From Lachnospiraceae bacterium (GTDB taxonomy: Bacteria; Bacillota; Clostridia; Lachnospirales; Lachnospiraceae): DNA of 13,507 nucleotides. The notes under the pieces were generated by a model, which was given only the letters and a program-made list of their open reading frames with translations, ran no database searches and was not told where the DNA came from. The stretch covers positions 1 through 13,507 of the forward strand of contig CABIZF010000023.1 of the NCBI GenBank assembly GCA_902363135.1. Reading direction: 5' to 3'. Below are positions 1,326 to 10,471 of the stretch, piece after piece (the first letter of the stretch is position 1; every line of letters starts with the position of its first letter). Position numbers and translations under genes: made by a program.

Positions 1326-1523
1326 TCATTCGTCTTCCAGCAAGCTCTTGATATCCATGCTGCGCAGGATCTCCGGCGGGATTTCCAGAATCACGGCCTC
1401 TCCTTTTTCCGCTTTTTTCCGGAAGTAGGAGAGGTCTTTTTCTGTCAGATATTCGATCTCGCTCCAGTTGTCCATTTCTGTTTTTCCTCCTTCGTTTTTC
1501 TCTGTTCTTTTATCGTCGTTCAT
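1326..1523 (-). CDS. Small acidic protein downstream of the coupling protein, function unknown
   Basis: This is the last gene of the minus-strand operon. The long reading (65 residues) starts at ATG 1523 and overlaps the VirD4 stop in an ATGA junction, which suggests translational coupling, but no good ribosome binding site precedes it. An internal ATG at 1475 has AGGAGG about 10 nt upstream and would give 49 residues beginning 'MDNWSEIEYLT'; I find the two starts about equally likely. The body is charged, with a predicted helix 'EKDLSYFRKKAEKGE' followed by 'VILEIPPEILRSMDIKSLLEDE'. No signal peptide or membrane segment is seen. I do not recognise a family. Its fixed place after the coupling protein suggests a transfer-related or regulatory role, by inference only. 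Confidence 0.65.
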   Translation of the reverse strand: MNDDKRTEKNEGGKTEMDNWSEIEYLTEKDLSYFRKKAEKGEAVILEIPPEILRSMDIKSLLEDE

Positions 1524-3571
1524 AGCAGGCTCTCACTCACTGTGATCCTGTTCTCAGCTAAAAAGATTTCTGAAAGTTCCTCTTTGGAATACAGCGCCCG
1601 GCCCTGATCGGTAGTGCATTCCATGATAGAGTGTTTTTTCATTGGCCCTGCCGCTGTATGAAGCACTTCTGCCTGCAATGCAAAGACCGGGTAAAGCTCC
1701 AGCCCCTCATAGAGATAGCCACCATACCATTCTGGCAGGTACCATCCGTTTTCGCTTTCCTGTATGTCCTTCCAGATCTGAGACTCCTCAAAAATTCCAC
1801 CATAGCTTTCTACCTGATACCGGAACGACTGCTTCTGCGCCGCTTCTCCGGCGGCGTCAATATAGTAGGCGATCCGGGCGAGCTCCTGCAGGTGGTCCTT
1901 TGTATGCTGATAGATGCCAAGCTGCTCTGCCTGACGGTATTCTGCTTTCTCCCATGTGCGGTATTTCTCATCACAGACCGCATCGTACCCCTTGACGATC
2001 ACCAGCGCCAACTTATTATCTAACTTGCGCACCTCATCTGGCGTCAGGATTTCGCGTCCGATCACATCGTAGTTGCGGCTGCTCGACCCGTGGCCGCCCC
2101 GGCTCTCCCCGGTCGTCTTTTTGTCAATCGTCTGCTTGCCCAGAAGCTTGGAAATATACTCGTGGGAGCCCTGTTCGTTGCCACCAAGATACACGACTGT
2201 ATCACAGCTTCCGGGTATTTCCTCCCATGCGTCTTTAAATAAGGTCTTTAGCTGTGCAAGATTCTGGATGATAATGTTGCAGGAAATCTCGCGGCTCCGA
2301 CAGGTAGCAAGGATGCGTAAGAAGTCATCCGGTAATGCGGTATTCGCAAATTCATCCATCCAGAGGGCGACATGGATGGGCAGCTGTCCGCCGTATTTGT
2401 GATCTGCAATGTAATACAGTTCCTGAAACAATTGTGTGTATAACAGTCCGACAAGGAAATTGTAGGATTTGTCGCTGTCCGGAATAACACAGAACAGGGC
2501 CGTCCGCCGCTCCGGATTCTCGTAAATCCCTTCCCCGAGTGTGCGGATCTCCATCTCATCTTCATCGAGCACTCGCAGGATCGCTTCATTTTGCAGGTAA
2601 GATAAACGGGAATGGGCGGATATGATGATGCTCCGGATCGTATCTGCCGCACCGCTTACGACTTTTTTGTAGGTAATAAGCGCCGGATGTTCTTCTGGAA
2701 GACGGTTCATCAGGATGTCCAGCTCGGAATCTTCTTTGCCGCCCGGAGATACTTTTGCCTTATTTAAAAGCTCCATCACGCCTCGGAAGTTCGCCTTCCT
2801 GCCCTGCTTTGGAAATTCGTACCAGACATATAAGATGATTGATTGCAGGTACATACTCTCTGCTTTCGTCCAGAACGGGTCGGAAGATGAGGAGCCTTTT
2901 GGCGTCGTATTCGCAATCAGGTTCGTGACAAGTTTCACCACATCTTCATCGGAACGCAGATAGGCGAGCGGATTGTAGCCATCGGACTCTGACATGTTGA
3001 CAAGATTCAGGACACGGATGCGGTAGCCCTGCAGCTTTAAATAGTTGCCGATATCCCGCAGCAACTCCCCTTTCGGGTCGCAGAATACGTAGGAACTCTC
3101 ATGGTTATAGCCGTTTGGCTTGACCACCCGGAAGCTCTTGCCGCCTCCGGGACCGCCGATGACAAGCATGTTGTTGTTTAAGTTTGTCTGCCTCGTATTC
3201 AGGCTGATCCGCACGTGTTCCGTAATGATCTTGTTGCGGTGCGGGTCACTGTCCTGTAAATGGCGGTTCAGCTCTTTTGGCTCTGCCAGCCGCGCTGTAC
3301 CATATTCCCTGCCGGGCATATAGTTGCGTCTGGCAGACTCGTAATACAAGGTGCCGGTCAGCGCGGCTGCCACGCAAACCAGGATCGATTTTCCGGTCAT
3401 CGGCGTCAGCTGTAATGGGAAGGGATGCAGGGCGATGCTTCTTAACTGATCTGCTGCAGTTTTGAAGGTATGATCCGTTCCATACAGGCTTCCGATACAG
3501 TACCCAAGGTAGATTGCAAGCAAAAACATTGGGATCAGCAAGACTTTTTGCGTGTGCTTTTTCTCTGGCAT
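1520..3571 (-). CDS. VirD4/TraG-type conjugative coupling protein (T4SS ATPase, PcfC/CD1115-like)
   Basis: This 683-residue ATPase would link the relaxase-DNA complex to the type IV secretion channel. Two membrane segments lie at about residues 10-30 and 60-77, then the nucleotide-binding domain follows. Walker A is GGPGGGKS at 139-146, and Walker B is ALWMDE at 402-407 with the acidic pair D406-E407. The segment 'QNLAQL' at 436-441 matches the motif after Walker B in TraG proteins. 'FCDPKGEL' at 163-170 and 'DPFWTKAESM' at 231-240 are also typical of TraG/VirD4. Length fits the Firmicutes members (about 600-700). The ATG at 3571 has AGAGGAG just upstream and begins one base after the PcfB stop, so the two are coupled, as in the pcfB-pcfC pair of pCF10. 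All key residues are present. Confidence 0.95.
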   Translation of the reverse strand: MPEKKHTQKVLLIPMFLLAIYLGYCIGSLYGTDHTFKTAADQLRSIALHPFPLQLTPMTGKSILVCVAAALTGTLYYESARRNYMPGREYGTARLAEPKELNRHLQDSDPHRNKIITEHVRISLNTRQTNLNNNMLVIGGPGGGKSFRVVKPNGYNHESSYVFCDPKGELLRDIGNYLKLQGYRIRVLNLVNMSESDGYNPLAYLRSDEDVVKLVTNLIANTTPKGSSSSDPFWTKAESMYLQSIILYVWYEFPKQGRKANFRGVMELLNKAKVSPGGKEDSELDILMNRLPEEHPALITYKKVVSGAADTIRSIIISAHSRLSYLQNEAILRVLDEDEMEIRTLGEGIYENPERRTALFCVIPDSDKSYNFLVGLLYTQLFQELYYIADHKYGGQLPIHVALWMDEFANTALPDDFLRILATCRSREISCNIIIQNLAQLKTLFKDAWEEIPGSCDTVVYLGGNEQGSHEYISKLLGKQTIDKKTTGESRGGHGSSSRNYDVIGREILTPDEVRKLDNKLALVIVKGYDAVCDEKYRTWEKAEYRQAEQLGIYQHTKDHLQELARIAYYIDAAGEAAQKQSFRYQVESYGGIFEESQIWKDIQESENGWYLPEWYGGYLYEGLELYPVFALQAEVLHTAAGPMKKHSIMECTTDQGRALYSKEELSEIFLAENRITVSESLL

Positions 3572-5992: not shown

Positions 5993-6630
5993 GTTCGGTC
6001 TCCTTCCTGTATCTTTTCTTTTAACTGCTGATAGGTCAGGCGCTCTGCATCTGTTAGGATCTGTTTTAACTTCCCGGCGGTGCAGGCCGGGTCTGCAATG
6101 GCCTTGCGGATCAGCTTTTGCTTTCGCCATGCATCGAAACGGCTCGGGGCGGCCTTGGCCTGTCCGGATTGCAGATACTCATACTGCTCTTTTATCTGTT
6201 CCTGTGTCTGCTTCAAAGCTTCCAGCTGAAGCGCAAATTGTTCCAGCTGCTGTCCGACCTCGTTTAAGACTGCCGCAATGTCGGGCGTGTGCTCCTGCTT
6301 TTGTGCGATGGCTTCTGTAAACAGCTCGATCACCCTTGGCTCTTCCGTCTCTTTCCGGAAAAATCGGGAAAGTACAAAGTCCTCTCCGGCGAAGAACGCC
6401 ATGCCCCGCATCAGGTCGAGATCCTGCGATGAGATACCCGCATCGTCCTGAAAAAAATGCCTGATAAAAGAATCGGAACAGCCCTGACTCACCATGAGAA
6501 AAAGCTGTTCCCGCTTGTGGATGTATGGTTCTTCCTGCAAATAGTCATATTGCAAAAGCAGTTTTTCATAGCGCTCCTGCACCGGTTCCTGATTTTGCCG
6601 GATGATATGTGTTACCGGTCTGTTTTCCAG
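5989..6630 (-). CDS. Coiled-coil protein downstream of the relaxase, function unknown (probable CTG start)
   Basis: There is no ATG near the 5' end of this frame. AGGAGGG at 6637-6643 lies exactly 6 nt before a CTG at 6630, giving a 213-residue protein starting 'MENRPVTHIIRQ'. A TTG at 6657 would add nine residues but has no ribosome binding site. The N-terminal 110 residues form a compact, mixed region ('YEKLLLQYDYLQEEPYIHKREQ', then 'DLDLMRGMAFFAGEDFVLSRFF'). Residues about 125-165 are a coiled coil rich in Q, E and L, and the C-terminus is basic and helical ('RKQKLIRKAIADPACTAGKLKQ'). It overlaps the relaxase stop by 19 nt. I do not recognise the family. The place directly after the relaxase and the basic tail suggest a relaxosome accessory protein, which is inference. 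Confidence 0.78.
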   Translation of the reverse strand: MENRPVTHIIRQNQEPVQERYEKLLLQYDYLQEEPYIHKREQLFLMVSQGCSDSFIRHFFQDDAGISSQDLDLMRGMAFFAGEDFVLSRFFRKETEEPRVIELFTEAIAQKQEHTPDIAAVLNEVGQQLEQFALQLEALKQTQEQIKEQYEYLQSGQAKAAPSRFDAWRKQKLIRKAIADPACTAGKLKQILTDAERLTYQQLKEKIQEGDRT

Positions 6631-7994
6631 ATGTGTCCCTCCTCTCTGTCTGAGCAACTTTTCTGGTGTTGGGGGTCATTTTCTATCTGCTCTGTCTGCT
6701 TTTGGATCGGCTGCTTTTGCCGCTCCTGTGATTCGGTAAACAATTGATACGTCTCTCTGGCCAGGCGATGCTCCTGCCGGATATCCCGTAATGTGACTTT
6801 GCATTTTTCGATCTCCTGCAGTTTTTTCAATCCATTGTCCTCCGGATTGCGCCGGTATTTTTTCCAGAGCAGATCCTTCTGCCTCCGTGTTGCCTGCTGT
6901 TCCTGTTCCAGTGCTTCAAGACGATCCTGCAGTGCCTCCGGCGTCCCGATTTCCTGATCAATGAGATACGCGAGTGCATCTGAGAGCTTCTGCACCTCGA
7001 GAATGTCCTTCCGGTATCTCCACGCCTGCTTTCGTCCCGGCTTCCGGATGCCATAGGTATTGTTCCATCTCCGGTAAAATTCCTTCTGGAAGGGCGTCAT
7101 TTTAAAATGCGGTGCGCGCTGCACTTTCTGGTAAAAGACTGCTTTGATGGCAGCGCGGTCGCCGTAAGTGCGATACCGGTATTCTACCTGTATGAGTCCC
7201 TTTTCCTGTATGCGCTGGCAGATCTCCTGCTTTCCGTACCCTTTTCCAAGCCGCCCGGTACGCACCGGACGTTCGCGGCCTTCCGGTCGCAGGGATAAAT
7301 ATTTACCGTCCCGCACCGCGTAATGCTCCCGCCGGAACCATGCGAGGAATGCCTTATAGCTGTCCGTCTCATGGATCGCCTGATCGATGTCGTCCCTTAT
7401 GATGTCATACCAGCGATACGATGGCTTTTCCGGTCTTTTACCGGCCTGCCAGTCTGCGTACTGCATGCCCTTCCGGTCGCCTGCCGGATCGTACTGCAAC
7501 GTTGGCAGATTGTATTTCCAGCACAGTCGGTCCGTGATCGGCTGAATGCGCCGCTCCCAGTCCTTTTTGGGGGAGTGAAAAATCGCTCCGTCCTCTTTTG
7601 ATACCGAGTCAAAGGTGATATGCGTATGGATGTGGGATCGGTCGTTGTGGACGGCGAATGCATAAAAGTACCGCTCCCCTAAAAGCGCGGCGCAAAATTC
7701 CTGCGCGATCTGGTAGGCCGTCGCCTCGGAGATCCCGCAGTCCGGTGGAAAGGAAAGCATGTAGTGAAAGCCCTGGGTGCAGTTGCCCGCCAGGTTGCTC
7801 TCTTTTCCCCACAGACGCTTATTTTGCTTCATCGTGTCATAGATAATTTCCGGCGAGACTCCGGCATTTCCTCCGATGTACAAACCATCGGCGGTCTTAT
7901 CCGGACGGCAGATGTAGAACAGGTTCTTTTTTAAGTGCGCCGCCGGGTTATTCCCCGGTGTCTCTTTGATCCGCAGAAGACGGGTTACTGCCAT
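6612..7994 (-). CDS. MobA/VirD2-type relaxase (MOBP-like)
   Basis: This 460-residue protein would nick oriT, stay bound to the 5' end through a tyrosine and lead the strand into the recipient. The metal-binding triad motif is clear: 'HNDRSHIHTH' at 116-125, with H121, H123 and H125. The likely catalytic tyrosine is Y28 in 'LFYICRPDKT' of motif I, and 'QGFHYMLSF' at 74-82 is the strand before the triad. After about residue 130 the protein continues with a basic region and, from about 330 to 440, a long coiled coil, typical of Firmicutes relaxases. ATG 7994 lies inside the end of mobC (47-nt overlap) with AGGAGG about 12 nt upstream; a later start would remove Y28. The Pfam Relaxase family is certain by motif; the MOBP subclass is my reading. 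Confidence 0.94.
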   Translation of the reverse strand: MAVTRLLRIKETPGNNPAAHLKKNLFYICRPDKTADGLYIGGNAGVSPEIIYDTMKQNKRLWGKESNLAGNCTQGFHYMLSFPPDCGISEATAYQIAQEFCAALLGERYFYAFAVHNDRSHIHTHITFDSVSKEDGAIFHSPKKDWERRIQPITDRLCWKYNLPTLQYDPAGDRKGMQYADWQAGKRPEKPSYRWYDIIRDDIDQAIHETDSYKAFLAWFRREHYAVRDGKYLSLRPEGRERPVRTGRLGKGYGKQEICQRIQEKGLIQVEYRYRTYGDRAAIKAVFYQKVQRAPHFKMTPFQKEFYRRWNNTYGIRKPGRKQAWRYRKDILEVQKLSDALAYLIDQEIGTPEALQDRLEALEQEQQATRRQKDLLWKKYRRNPEDNGLKKLQEIEKCKVTLRDIRQEHRLARETYQLFTESQERQKQPIQKQTEQIENDPQHQKSCSDREEGHIWKTDR

Positions 7995-8406
7995 CTGCTT
8001 TGCTGGCCTCCTCTCGATTTTCTGTTTCTGGCAGTCGTGTTGACACCGCCAGCATTTCCAGCTGCTGATAAAACTGCTGGTAGCTTCGGCGGATCTCCTC
8101 TAAATACTTCACAAGCAGCTGATAGTCTTCTCTCGTGATGAACCGCTTGGAGTTGCAGGAGCGCACGACCTGATTGATATTGATGCCGACGCGCCGTTCC
8201 TGCTCGGTCAGCCTCTGGAGCATTGCATTGGTCTCGGGCGGGAGCCTTGGCTGACTGCCATAGAACAGCCTCCGACGCATATAGCCAGATTCTGTCATTC
8301 GGTATTGTTCTGCCTGCCGTGCCAGCTGCATGGCTTCCTCTTCCGTCACCCGCACCGCCTTTAGGACTGTTCGAGTGCTATGGACTTTCTCTTTTCTTTT
8401 TGTCAT
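7948..8406 (-). CDS. mobC: MobC-like relaxosome accessory protein
   Basis: The protein has 152 residues. It begins with a basic stretch and 'KAVRVTEEEAMQLARQAEQYRMTESGYMRRRLF', which fits a ribbon-helix-helix DNA-binding fold at residues 14-47. The MobC hallmark 'GININQVVR' is at 74-82, followed by a helix ('DYQLLVKYLEEIRRSYQQFYQQLE'). MobC proteins bind oriT and help the relaxase to melt the nick site; they are usually encoded just before the relaxase, as here. The start at 8406 has AAAGGAA about 5-8 nt upstream. The last 15 codons overlap the relaxase gene, so the two are translated together. An intrinsic terminator sits only 30 nt before the start codon and no promoter is evident between, so expression may depend on read-through. 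Confidence 0.9.
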   Translation of the reverse strand: MTKRKEKVHSTRTVLKAVRVTEEEAMQLARQAEQYRMTESGYMRRRLFYGSQPRLPPETNAMLQRLTEQERRVGININQVVRSCNSKRFITREDYQLLVKYLEEIRRSYQQFYQQLEMLAVSTRLPETENREEASKADGSNPSSADQRDTGE

Positions 8407-8437
8407 CGTGATTCCTTTCTTTGATTTTTGGGTATAG

Positions 8438-8470
8438 AAAAAGCAGCTAATCTGCTGACTAACTGCTTTC
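8438..8470 (-). terminator. Intrinsic terminator between the 56-residue gene and mobC
   Basis: Read on the minus strand, 8469-8457 pairs with 8452-8440 over 13 bp (two G-U pairs) around a 4-nt loop (8456-8453). The 3' arm runs into a U-tract (UUUUU at 8442-8438). It lies 20 nt after the stop of the 56-residue gene and about 30 nt before the mobC start. The shape is that of a rho-independent terminator, and it should reduce transcription from the promoter at 8682-8710 into mobC and the relaxase gene. Confidence 0.75.
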
Positions 8471-8489
8471 CTGCCTTTTCCTGATTCTT

Positions 8490-8660
8490 TTAGTTTTCAA
8501 AATCCTGTTTCATTTCTGCTTCCACTTCATCTGCCGAATAGACTCTACCCGACCGAATATCATCCATTCCCTTTTCTATCTCTGCATCAAACTGTTTTTT
8601 TGTAAGAGTGTCATACCTTACAGGCTCCTCACCTAAAGCTATGTTTCTTACTTTTGCCAT
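8490..8660 (-). CDS. 56-residue antitoxin-like protein (RelB/DinJ-type C-terminal pattern), no toxin partner seen
   Basis: The ATG at 8660 has AGGAGG 8 nt upstream. The product starts 'MAKVRNIALGEEPVRYDTLT' and continues 'FDAEIEKGMDDIRSGRVYSADEVEAEMKQDF'. The second half has the 'D.EIEKG..D...GR....EEV...M...F' pattern that is common at the C-terminus of RelB/DinJ-like and related small antitoxins, where it binds a RelE/ParE toxin. A DNA-binding N-terminus is short here. Downstream there are only 83 nt to mobC, filled by a terminator, and upstream lies the oriT-like region, so no toxin gene is next to it. It has its own promoter and terminator. It could be an orphan antitoxin against a chromosomal or distant toxin, or a small repressor of the transfer genes. 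The gene is well supported; the function is a guess from pattern. Confidence 0.72.
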   Translation of the reverse strand: MAKVRNIALGEEPVRYDTLTKKQFDAEIEKGMDDIRSGRVYSADEVEAEMKQDFEN

Positions 8661-8681
8661 ACATACCGCCTCCTACATCTG

Positions 8682-8710
8682 ATTCTATTGCCTTTATCTT
8701 AAAATTGCAA
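8682..8710 (-). promoter_or_regulatory. Sigma-70/SigA-type promoter for the 56-residue gene
   Basis: On the minus strand a -35 box TTGCAA (8710-8705) is followed after exactly 17 nt by a -10 box TAGAAT (8687-8682), five of six matches to TATAAT. The ATG of the 56-residue gene starts 22 nt after the -10 box. This is the clearest promoter in the transfer region and the only obvious one between the membrane-protein genes and mobC. Confidence 0.65.
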
Positions 8711-8721
8711 TATACTTGCAA
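8705..8721. promoter_or_regulatory. Palindromic operator candidate overlapping the -35 box
   Basis: TTGCAA at 8705-8710 and again at 8716-8721 are separated by 5 nt. Each copy is its own reverse complement, so the whole is a dyad with centres one helical turn (11 bp) apart. One half is the -35 element of the promoter. A dimeric repressor such as MobC (ribbon-helix-helix) or the 56-residue protein could bind here; this is inference. Confidence 0.45.
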
Positions 8722-8741
8722 ACACTTTCCTTGCGACTCCA

Positions 8742-8840
8742 AAGCTGGCCTGCAGCCAGCTTCTACATCCGCGCTTCCTCGCGAATGGCAAGATACGCCA
8801 ATGTTATACATTCGCATCTTGTCAGGGGAAGCTCCCCTGA
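8742..8840. other. Candidate origin of transfer (oriT): cluster of three inverted repeats with nic-like motifs
   Basis: Three dyads are packed in 99 bp, upstream of mobC and the relaxase gene. (1) AAGCTGGC/GCCAGCTT, 8742-8749 with 8755-8762. (2) An imperfect repeat, 8789-8803 with 8809-8821, arms CAAGATACGCCAATG and CATTCGCATCTTG around TTATA. (3) TCAGGGGA/TCCCCTGA, 8822-8829 with 8833-8840. The outer arms of repeat 2 carry ATCTTG: TATCTTGC on the minus strand (8795-8788) and CATCTTGT on the plus strand (8815-8822). Both differ by one base from the YATCCTGY nick core known for MOBP relaxases such as RP4. Cluster and position fit an oriT; the exact nick site and strand are not proven. Confidence 0.6.
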
Positions 8841-9200
8841 TACCCCTAAATTGCCGCCCGTTTGCCAGTTTTTCCGGCTTTTTTCCGGGCTGTCTGCAGG
8901 CGGCTGATTCTTGAATAATTCCGGGCTGCTGCTAACGAGCAGCCACCTCCTCCAGCCCTTGGGCCGTGCGATCGCAATTCCGGCTCTGGCCGCTTTTCTT
9001 TTCAACTGCTTCCAGTCCTTTTTGCTTTTGCCGATCCATATCGCGATCGCTATGCTATGCCGATCCTGCAGATGCAGCTTTGGCATTTTCTGGTCGAGCT
9101 GCTGCAAAAGCCACAAGATAGCAAGGCCCTCTGCCAGTTTTTGCGAATCGGAACGCACACCATATCTCCCTGATATCAGAATGATTTCTGCTTCATTCAT
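8763..9200 (-). CDS. 145-residue basic protein, function unknown; 3' end overlaps the oriT candidate
   Basis: The ATG at 9200 overlaps the stop of the preceding 42-residue frame (ATGA), with AAAGGAA just upstream. The first 95 residues look like a folded protein: 'MNEAEIILISGRYGVRSDSQ', a helix 'LAEGLAILWLLQQLDQK', then 'SIAIAIWIGKSKKDWKQLKRKAARAGIAI' with many lysines and arginines. From about residue 110 the sequence is translated from the inverted-repeat cluster ('NLGVSGELPLTRCECITLAYLAIREEARM') and may not be under selection as protein. I do not know the family. A basic protein encoded next to oriT could bind it. The upstream coupling and good start make the gene likely; the exact C-terminal reading is less sure. 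Confidence 0.6.
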   Translation of the reverse strand: MNEAEIILISGRYGVRSDSQKLAEGLAILWLLQQLDQKMPKLHLQDRHSIAIAIWIGKSKKDWKQLKRKAARAGIAIARPKGWRRWLLVSSSPELFKNQPPADSPEKSRKNWQTGGNLGVSGELPLTRCECITLAYLAIREEARM

Positions 9201-9325
9201 CCATTTCCTTTCACACTTTTTTCAAATGTTTTCCATATTTCTGACACAGACACACAGTATCCTGTAATCACATCAAAGCCATACAGCTTTTTTACATAGA
9301 TTTCTTTTTCATATCGCCGGGGCAT
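9197..9325 (-). CDS. 42-residue frame with its start codon in a hairpin loop, possible small gene
   Basis: GGAGG at 9336-9340 precedes an ATG at 9325 by 10 nt, and the frame (product 'MPRRYEKEIYVKKLYGFDVITG...') ends in an ATGA overlap with the 145-residue gene. The overlaps and ribosome binding site make translation plausible. The ATG lies in the loop of a perfect 8-bp GC-only stem (9316-9323 with 9328-9335), so initiation may be blocked or conditional. It could serve as a leader that couples translation to the next gene. No family is recognised. Confidence 0.45.
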   Translation of the reverse strand: MPRRYEKEIYVKKLYGFDVITGYCVSVSEIWKTFEKSVKGNG

Positions 9326-9344: not shown

Positions 9345-9509
9345 TTACTCGGAAAAATATCTGATTTCCTGTTTCTCCAAGAGTTCCCGCTGTTTTTTCT
9401 GATAGACTTCCTTACTGATTGTTCCCTCCATATAATAGGCCAAAAGTAACTTTGCTTCCTCATCCGGCACTACCTGGTCGTCGATGGTTCTCGCGTTGTC
9501 TTCCTGCAT
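9345..9509 (-). CDS. 54-residue acidic protein downstream of the ArdC-like gene, function unknown
   Basis: The ATG at 9509 is preceded by AAAGGAG at 9 nt. The product starts 'MQEDNARTIDDQVVPDEEAK' and ends with a helix pair, 'LLLAYYMEGTISKEVYQKKQ' and 'RELLEKQEIRYFSE'. The 'YYMEGTISKEVYQKKQRELLE' stretch resembles the short helix-turn-helix tail often seen in small conjugation or recombinase-associated proteins (SHOCT-like), but I would not name it. The gene overlaps the end of the ArdC-like gene by 40 nt in another frame, so translation is coupled. It is too short for family assignment. Confidence 0.68.
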   Translation of the reverse strand: MQEDNARTIDDQVVPDEEAKLLLAYYMEGTISKEVYQKKQRELLEKQEIRYFSE

Positions 9510-10471
9510 GCTTTAATGCTCCTTTCTTCCGGTTCTTCGATTTGTGGACGGAGTTTTTCTTTTATCCTTGGGCTGGCATCCAGAATCAGGTTGGCTGCTT
9601 TTTTTGCCTGATTCGCCGCAAAATACAGGTCTGCCGGTTTTCCTGCCCTGATCCGGCTGTACCAGCCCTGCAGGTAAGCCACATTATTTTCCATGCTCCG
9701 ATCATCCTGCAGCCTCGTCGCTGCACAGAGAAAAGATGCGGAGATCTCTGCTACCAGTTCTTCTTTTGCATAAGCCAATCCCGTCCGTTCCGCGATAAAG
9801 TGTCCTGTGCTGTGTGCAAGTTCATGAAATACTGTAGAATAATACTGATATTGACTGGAAAATTGCTCTTTTGCTGGAAGCACGACGGTCTTTCCCTGTG
9901 AGTATGCCTTGTCTCCGCCATCCCGCGTCACGATCTCAATCCTGTATTTTTGGCTGTAATCTGCAATCAGTGCATCGGCCAGCCTGCTGATCTTGGTCGC
10001 ATCATGCGAAAACTCCGGTATCTTGAAATGGCTCTGCAGCCCTTTCACATCTGCGATGTGGAACTCCCTTGTATAGCGCACGCGGAATGTCTCGATTACC
10101 GGCTGTCCATGCTCATCCAGTACCTCTTTCCCTTGTTCATCTTTTTTAAATACCGGAATATTCTGATAAACGTAAGCCTGCCGCGCCCCTTTCCGGATAT
10201 GTACTTCCGGCCTTTCTTTTTGCATCTGGCAAATGCTCCGGTAGCTCAAATATTCTCCCGGCTCTAAGAAAAAATAATTGACTGCCGCGGAAAAAGGACG
10301 ATTTGGGGTATGATAGCTGCAGGCATACGGCGCATGCGTCCACGGCTTTATCCACGTGAAACGCTCCCCGGTATCGAGTGCTTGCTCAATTTTCTGCAGT
10401 AGCTGTGCCTGTATAATATCAAAAATACTTACCTTTTTTACCTGACCTGCTGTTTCTGACTCTGCCCGCAT
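9470..10471 (-). CDS. ArdC-like protein: N-terminal ssDNA-binding domain plus zinc metallopeptidase domain
   Basis: The protein has 333 residues. Residues about 15-150 match the ArdC N-terminal domain (DUF1738): 'WIKPWTHAPYACSYHTPNRPFSAAVNYFFL', then a basic 'IRKGARQAYVY' and 'FRVRYTREFHIADVKGL'. The second domain is a zincin with 'HELAHSTGH' at 216-224 (H216, E217, H220) and 'EELVAEISASFL' at 237-248, where E242 is the likely third ligand. This is the layout of ArdC antirestriction proteins and of plasmid-primase-linked proteins. ArdC is known to bind single-stranded DNA and protect incoming DNA from restriction. All active-site residues are present. The ATG at 10471 has AGGGGGTG upstream and follows the previous stop by 13 nt. 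Some relatives have no antirestriction activity, so that role is inferred. Confidence 0.88.
   Translation of the reverse strand: MRAESETAGQVKKVSIFDIIQAQLLQKIEQALDTGERFTWIKPWTHAPYACSYHTPNRPFSAAVNYFFLEPGEYLSYRSICQMQKERPEVHIRKGARQAYVYQNIPVFKKDEQGKEVLDEHGQPVIETFRVRYTREFHIADVKGLQSHFKIPEFSHDATKISRLADALIADYSQKYRIEIVTRDGGDKAYSQGKTVVLPAKEQFSSQYQYYSTVFHELAHSTGHFIAERTGLAYAKEELVAEISASFLCAATRLQDDRSMENNVAYLQGWYSRIRAGKPADLYFAANQAKKAANLILDASPRIKEKLRPQIEEPEERSIKACRKTTREPSTTR

Follow-up and report, generated by a model that had tools for sequence, protein, structure and literature searches.

The locus and its features

The window, i.e. the whole stretch of 13,507 nucleotides that was analysed, carries on its minus strand a series of transfer genes and a putative origin of transfer, in the order metallopeptidase, oriT, mobC, relaxase and VirD4 (Table 1). 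The mobC and relaxase genes had been named correctly in the first-pass annotation, while the promoter that it placed upstream of mobC corresponds only to a weak consensus match (9/12, at 8710-8682). The relaxase is assigned to the MOBP type on the basis of its nuclease domain with a histidine triad and of the accessory gene of the RHH type beside it. Residues H115, D117, H120, H122 and H124, which include the triad, are invariant in 39 aligned sequences. NikA, to which the accessory protein is similar, is described as an RHH protein in PMC8136818.

Table 1. Features of the window discussed in the text; a slash within a motif marks the predicted cut.
Feature	Position	Strand	Basis and remarks
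VirD4-type coupling protein, CD1115 family	1520..3571	-	NF045973, 2e-135
Relaxase, MobA/VirD2 nuclease family (MOBP-type)	6612..7994	-	PF03432, 1.6e-28
MobC/NikA-like relaxosome accessory protein	7948..8406	-	PF21983, 4.3e-10; PF05713, 3.5e-05
Small ORF (56 aa) between putative oriT and mobC	8490..8660	-	visible reading frame
Dyad 1, AAGCTGGC with GCCAGCTT	8742-8749/8755-8762	.	8 bp, perfect; not conserved
Dyad directly 3' of the predicted nick	8766..8787 (arms 8780-8787 and 8766-8773)	-	fold
Conserved unit, putative oriT	8784..8847	-	covariation; R1 match of 72.1 bits, the window being itself one of the 16 sequences from which R1 was built
Middle dyad	8786-8797/8813-8824		12 nt, 83%
8-nt spacer and predicted nick, GTATCTTG/C	8788..8796	-	nick 8789/8788
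Inner inverted repeat	8797..8815 (8808-8815 with 8797-8804)	-	arms covary
Left outer arm CAAGAT, partner of the nick core	8816..8821	-	covariation
Hairpin TCAGGGG with CCCCTGA, adjoining the left arm	8822-8829/8833-8840	-	8 bp, perfect; conserved
Metallopeptidase	9470-10471	-

The three inverted repeats that had been reported within 99 bp (dyad 1, the middle dyad and the hairpin at 8822-8840) are all present, and a fourth one that had been overlooked is seen in the fold directly 3' of the TATCTTGC site. The two motifs at the ends of the middle dyad, TATCTTGC on the minus strand (8788-8795) and CATCTTGT on the plus strand (8815-8822, the left outer arm read on that strand), were said to lie one base from YATCCTGY, and each indeed has a single mismatch to it. 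In terms of the MOBP consensus YATCCTG/Y, as used in the first-pass annotation, the nick core of the window has one mismatch, and most cores of the family read TATCT[TAG]GC. By itself, the degenerate motif YATCYTGY is not rare, with 6 occurrences in the window compared to 4.4 in shuffled sequences, and at least 6 in 60 of 200 shuffles. The folded arrangement, unlike the bare motif, is rare. The minus strand of 8735-8850 (116 nt) folds with an energy of -31.6 kcal/mol, against -14.0 +/- 2.7 kcal/mol for shuffled sequences (z -6.56), and none of the 200 shuffles folds as low. The dyads are real.

An ORF of 145 aa on the minus strand (8763-9200) reads through the putative oriT. It was considered as a gene and rejected, since its matches in the related loci discussed below are only marginal (5e-4 at best). 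In 89K, according to PMC3132442, the oriT likewise lies within a coding sequence.

Conservation and covariation

A search with the 39 aligned relaxases yielded 24 related loci, mainly from Lachnospiraceae and Clostridiales MAGs but also from the isolate Porcincola intestinalis and from one MAG labelled proteobacterium, with relaxase identities of 40-71% over the best segment. At 22 of the 24 loci, TATCTTGC is found on the relaxase-sense strand, 428-983 nt upstream of the relaxase match. It is absent from the sequence examined at L023 and L024, where the relaxase matches are partial (residues 51-186 and 91-164, respectively).

Among the 23 aligned rows, which include the window and were selected for containing TATCTTGC, GCNTATCTTGC is present in every one, and the flanks on the nick side are nearly invariant, all 23 having G at -3 together with C at -2, and 22 of them G at -1. 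In 16 representatives, the two arms have their conserved GC pairs 15 to 53 nt apart, and in some relatives GTGAAAC repeats occupy this gap. A partner for the 8822-8840 hairpin is present in 19 of the 23 rows (allowing no more than 1 mismatch in the 7 positions), the one counted in L002 being spurious, though a 6-bp stem exists there; none was found in L012, L014, L017 and L018. In L001, L019 and L022, the loop of this hairpin measures 60-76 nt.

As a separate observation, L001, L008, L009, L014, L019 and L022 seem to have an enlarged loop in the 5' hairpin that precedes the oriT core, and some of the enlarged loops hold a palindromic repeat of the GAAGCGAAGCGG or CCGGTCGGT type, as if it had been inserted into the hairpin.

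At the place of dyad 1 (8742-8762), a perfect repeat of at least 7 bp occurs in only two of the 23 rows, the window and L010, and the two sequences are unrelated. Of the dyads that had been put forward together as a candidate oriT, the middle one and the hairpin at 8822-8840 are thus conserved beside related relaxase genes, while dyad 1 is not and was rejected as a part of the unit. Only 8 of the 23 rows form a stem comparable to the dyad 3' of the predicted nick.

The inner inverted repeat varies in sequence across the relatives, with its pairing largely kept. For 16 distinct cores, six positions of the inner arms give 66 pairs out of 96, compared to a mean of 38 with shuffled partners, and a value of 66 was reached in none of 20000 shuffles. 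This repeat is likely the recognition site for MobC and/or the relaxase. In alignment A3, consisting of 16 rows of which some come from pattern-found loci, 90.6% of the cells are paired, against 82.1% for shuffled and 35.6-47.5% for slid partners. The covariation score and the number of cells changed on both sides are above all 500 shuffles, whereas pairs changed on both sides (a value reached in 35/500 shuffles) and the count of further pair types (263/500) are not, such that two of the five measures do not clearly exceed the shuffles.

The covariance model R1 was run on 45 sources and gave 40 matches, 36 of them distinct. At an E-value of 0.01, no match was obtained in L018, L034, L035, L037 (an S. 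aureus plasmid) and L038 (pCF10). For the 36 distinct sequences, 95.0% of the cells are paired, against 32.7-46.2% for slid partners, with 98.4% for the 8822-8840 hairpin; these percentages are flattering, because the alignment is fitted to the R1 structure and contains the model's own rows. The covariation score is 0.360, compared to 0.126 for shuffles, in an alignment where related sequences inflate the counts. The second base of the arm and its partner in the nick core (columns 31-98) form AU in 19, UA in 9 and CG in 8 of the 36 sequences and are never broken. The arm and core thus change together, as CAAG with CTTG, CTAG with CTAG and CCAG with CTGG. The cores TCTTG, TCTAG and TCTGG go with the arms CAAG, CTAG and CCAG or CCGG, respectively; rarer cores are ACTTG with the arm CAAGT (two cases) and GCTTG (L033). 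Breaks are more frequent in two outer pairs (8/36 and 2/36).

Number and strand of nicks

Comparison with the related loci strongly supports the identification of the segment as an oriT. With a probability of roughly 0.88, we consider it to be the oriT of an ICE that would be cut once, on the minus strand at GTATCTTG/C, with the upstream arm pairing to the nick core. The position of the cut is suggested by several features of the 36 distinct sequences. The predicted nick on the relaxase-sense strand follows the end of the inner repeat by 8 nt in 35 of them (7 nt in L033), while on the opposite strand repeat and motif are 6 nt apart in 30 and 7 nt apart in 6. The former strand retains the A of YATC in 34/36 and the latter in 27/36, and a C follows the nick in all 36. 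By eye, the same 8-nt distance to the presumed nick is found in pCF10 and in L037, a probable pC221-like plasmid. The nic predicted for 89K of S. suis also lies 8 nt downstream of an inverted repeat, as stated in PMC3132442. From the spacing, the retention of the A, the invariant C and the distances in these three systems, we infer a single nick at TATCTTG/C on the minus strand, between 8789 and 8788.

Proposed details of the process are as follows. A relaxosome consisting of the NikA-like MobC, of the ribbon-helix-helix family, and the MOBP-type relaxase would assemble on the inner inverted repeat. A single cut of the minus strand by the relaxase would then follow at 8789/8788, 8 nt from the repeat, after which the enzyme would stay attached to C8788 at its 5' end. 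Mobilised in the direction of lower coordinates, the element would bring mobC and the relaxase gene across first. In the single-stranded form, the nick core could pair with the upstream arm CAAGAT, and this paired region, with the 8822-8840 hairpin beside it, may provide for recognition and for rejoining when transfer ends.

A single nick could instead be located on the plus strand, at CATCTTG/TCAGGGG, in which case mobC and the relaxase gene would enter last. This option has the attraction that a hairpin follows immediately 3' of the cut, and in the Monoglobus plasmid L033 it is the hairpin side that faces mobC. There, the unit (2976-3041) is inverted relative to mobC and the relaxase gene as compared to the window, and since it lies on the strand opposite to mobC, the orientation of the unit to these genes is not universal. 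The spacing, the invariance of the flanks and the loss of the arm in one relative favour the minus strand, however, as does a gene order like that of pCF10, whose nick is on the relaxase-sense strand. We therefore regard a plus-strand nick as very improbable. By eye, the unit is inverted likewise in L034 and L035.

The symmetric reading, in which each arm holds a functional nick site and transfer can occur in either orientation, had been raised in the first-pass annotation, and we find it even harder to sustain. Both motifs are one base from the consensus, and the opposite arm follows the nick core through its three variants and keeps the A of YATC in a good part of the sequences. Such tracking is, however, also predicted by base pairing, and the retention of the A and the repeat-to-motif spacing are both unequal between the strands, as given above. 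Furthermore, the opposite-arm motif in the 23 rows reads CATCTTG in 11, CCTCTTG in 9 and CACCTTG in 1, while L018 has lost it and the row of L017 is cut off before it. It is thus intact (YATCTTG) in 11 of the 22 readable relaxase-linked rows, window included, compared to 22 of 24 loci for TATCTTGC. L018 has the nick side without the arm, and the reverse case was not seen among the rows. In view of this asymmetry in spacing and conservation, a bidirectional oriT was rejected. The proposal of an oriT holds, then, while that of nick motifs on both arms permitting transfer either way is not supported: CATCTTGT is most likely the base-pairing arm of the nick core rather than a second nick site, and the original caveat, by which one of the sites could simply result from the dyad, is to be preferred.

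Finally, the hairpins could be a transcription attenuator or an operator of mobC rather than an oriT. Their position upstream of mobC would fit, RHH proteins frequently autoregulate, and autoregulation by the RHH protein is suggested for SmpO in PMC8136818; this is nevertheless highly implausible, considering that the nick-like core is invariant on one side only, that some copies have neither mobC nor relaxase in the DNA examined, and that the sole terminator-like site in 8380-9300 is at 8456-8442. Autoregulation may coexist with the function as oriT.

Occurrence in Lachnospiraceae genomes

To our knowledge, oriT sites are rarely annotated in the gut family Lachnospiraceae. The genomes sampled here come from the family of Porcincola intestinalis (genome G014, locus L016), a member of Lachnospiraceae. 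R1 represents a sequence-and-structure signature for a putative oriT family, and at an E-value of 0.001 it matches 106 of the 397 genomes sampled from this one family; the E-values are rough, 7 of the 106 genomes supplied sequences to the model, and an eighth, G014, has a sequence identical to an R1 row. Two slightly differing sequence patterns gave 5/299 and 9/397 genomes, in overlapping sets, with the reversed control pattern at 0 among the matches listed. Relatives of the window's oriT thus occur across many gut bacteria, and the signature leads to predictions of a single nick, of the strand that is cut and of the direction in which transfer runs.

The best 30 loci were examined, one apiece from 30 high-scoring genomes among the 106, and several of them are near-duplicates (e.g. 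L076, L077, L081 and L082). A family relaxase lies near the match in 17 of the 30, in 16 downstream on the same strand (that of L066 visible only in a longer stretch) and in one upstream (L070). When the 8 loci with a sequence in R1 are excluded, the numbers become 14/22, with 13 downstream on the same strand. In one genome (G162:C5:1271661-1271946), two R1 matches are found on opposite strands, ca 140 nt apart.

Other searches contributed little. In viral contigs, the pattern scan turned up two GC-rich look-alikes that lack the hairpin (L044 and L045) and were dropped. Nothing useful came from the relaxase as a single sequence against genome and viral contigs, or from the relaxase alignment against viral contigs. 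Blastn of the region against plasmids gave no match in one run and in another five short Azospirillum matches with E-values of 2-7, which were disregarded.

Copies without a relaxase

The other 13 of the best 30 loci have no family relaxase in the surrounding 3.8-19.9 kb, the stretches of G189, G063, G286, G068 and G362 being short on one or both sides. These orphan copies retain the hairpin, the arm and the nick core. The one in G362 has a MobC-like gene, with no relaxase found in the stretch, and that in G101 lies near a VirD4 gene. In G288, a family relaxase is located ca 14.5 kb away, with a different oriT of its own (TATCTGG). When the whole assemblies of five orphan genomes were considered, a family relaxase was present in G162, G288 and G189, and none was found in G100 and G362.

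According to profile matches, the neighbours of the orphan copies are an AbiL-like pair and an integrase in G162, an IetS-like protein in G100, restriction-modification genes in G288, AbiEii-like and type I specificity proteins in G088, a PifA-like protein in G068, a candidate PDC-S13 protein in G189 and an AAA ATPase in G362. Integrases stand beside the copies in G372, G286 and G294, and a transposase in G312. With a cut-off of 1e-10, the defence models gave no match to the chosen proteins of G372, G063, G101, G312 and G294; among those of G286, nothing but a short stretch of mad1 was matched. No enrichment of defence genes is claimed, because the scanned ORFs were chosen by hand and the neighbours have no background control. 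Listed by locus, orphan copies at L054, L055, L056, L091 and L094 are beside genes that match the models for IetS, RM, AbiL, AbiEii plus type I specificity, and PifA, respectively. The copy in G068 (L094:9846) directly follows metA (homoserine O-succinyltransferase), and by eye so does that in G288 (L055:5870); this common position, with different defence genes coming next in the two genomes, suggests a shared insertion place.

Those orphan loci that have integrases or anti-phage genes as neighbours may be moved in trans. In a more specific and tentative form, to which we give somewhat less than even odds, relaxase-less defence islands of gut Lachnospiraceae would copy the oriT of ICEs and be moved by ICE relaxases, and the inner repeat would act as the code by which the two are matched. 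Sharing in trans is favoured by the retention of hairpin, arm and core in the orphans and by the family relaxase elsewhere in three of the five genomes; it is disfavoured by the two assemblies that have none (G100 and G362) and by the lack of a background control for the neighbours. Copies of oriT that use a relaxase in trans are known from S. aureus plasmids, as described in PMC4652767 and PMC8136818. Such copies on gut-bacterial islands are a lead, and R1 yields a list of relaxase-less islands possibly mobilised by ICEs.

Comparison with known systems

Among the papers listed, none concerns an oriT of the window's family, as judged from titles and the openings of abstracts. An oriT-like unit of the same kind is present in plasmid pEG81-1 from Enterococcus gallinarum (L025), with TATCTAG/C, the arm CTAGAT and a score of 74.3 bits, this unit being also one of the sequences from which R1 was built. 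Its relaxase is 30% identical to that of the window. Unlike the window, where a scan gave a single isolated hit, pEG81-1 has accessory repeats upstream. These are inverted, centre on AAAAAGTG/AGAAAGTG, lie upstream of the hairpin (L025:2770-2990) and are mostly 32 bp apart. Accessory repeats are also seen upstream of the oriT in L050, L053 and L056, with arm sequences that vary by element.

pCF10, a MOBP-type plasmid of Gram-positive bacteria with PcfF and PcfG, resembles the window in having an inverted repeat that precedes the presumed CTTG/C cut by 8 nt, a MobC-type gene and a relaxase gene downstream of the oriT, and a VirD4 of the CD1115 family; the protein upstream of its oriT matches the window's metallopeptidase at 2e-6. 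It differs in giving no R1 match and, by eye, in lacking both a TYAGGGG hairpin and a paired outer arm of this form. In PMC6514445, the pCF10 oriT is described as inverted repeats plus nic, where the RHH protein PcfF binds and recruits the relaxase.

The pWBG749 family (IR1-IR3, SmpO/SmpP), as described in PMC4652767 and PMC8136818, shares with the window several dyads beside the core and a predicted branched hairpin of single-stranded DNA. It also resembles the present family in the variable IR2 as specificity element, the order of oriT, RHH gene and relaxase gene, and the relaxase-less copies. Membership in this MOBMG group was rejected, since its core CTTATGCTCTT was not found in the window, with one 2-mismatch match (4336) against 5.2 expected. 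By analogy, the mode of action at the present locus would be that of known MOBP-type oriT sites with an RHH accessory protein, and the layout with several dyads and a branched hairpin has a precedent in the pWBG749 group.
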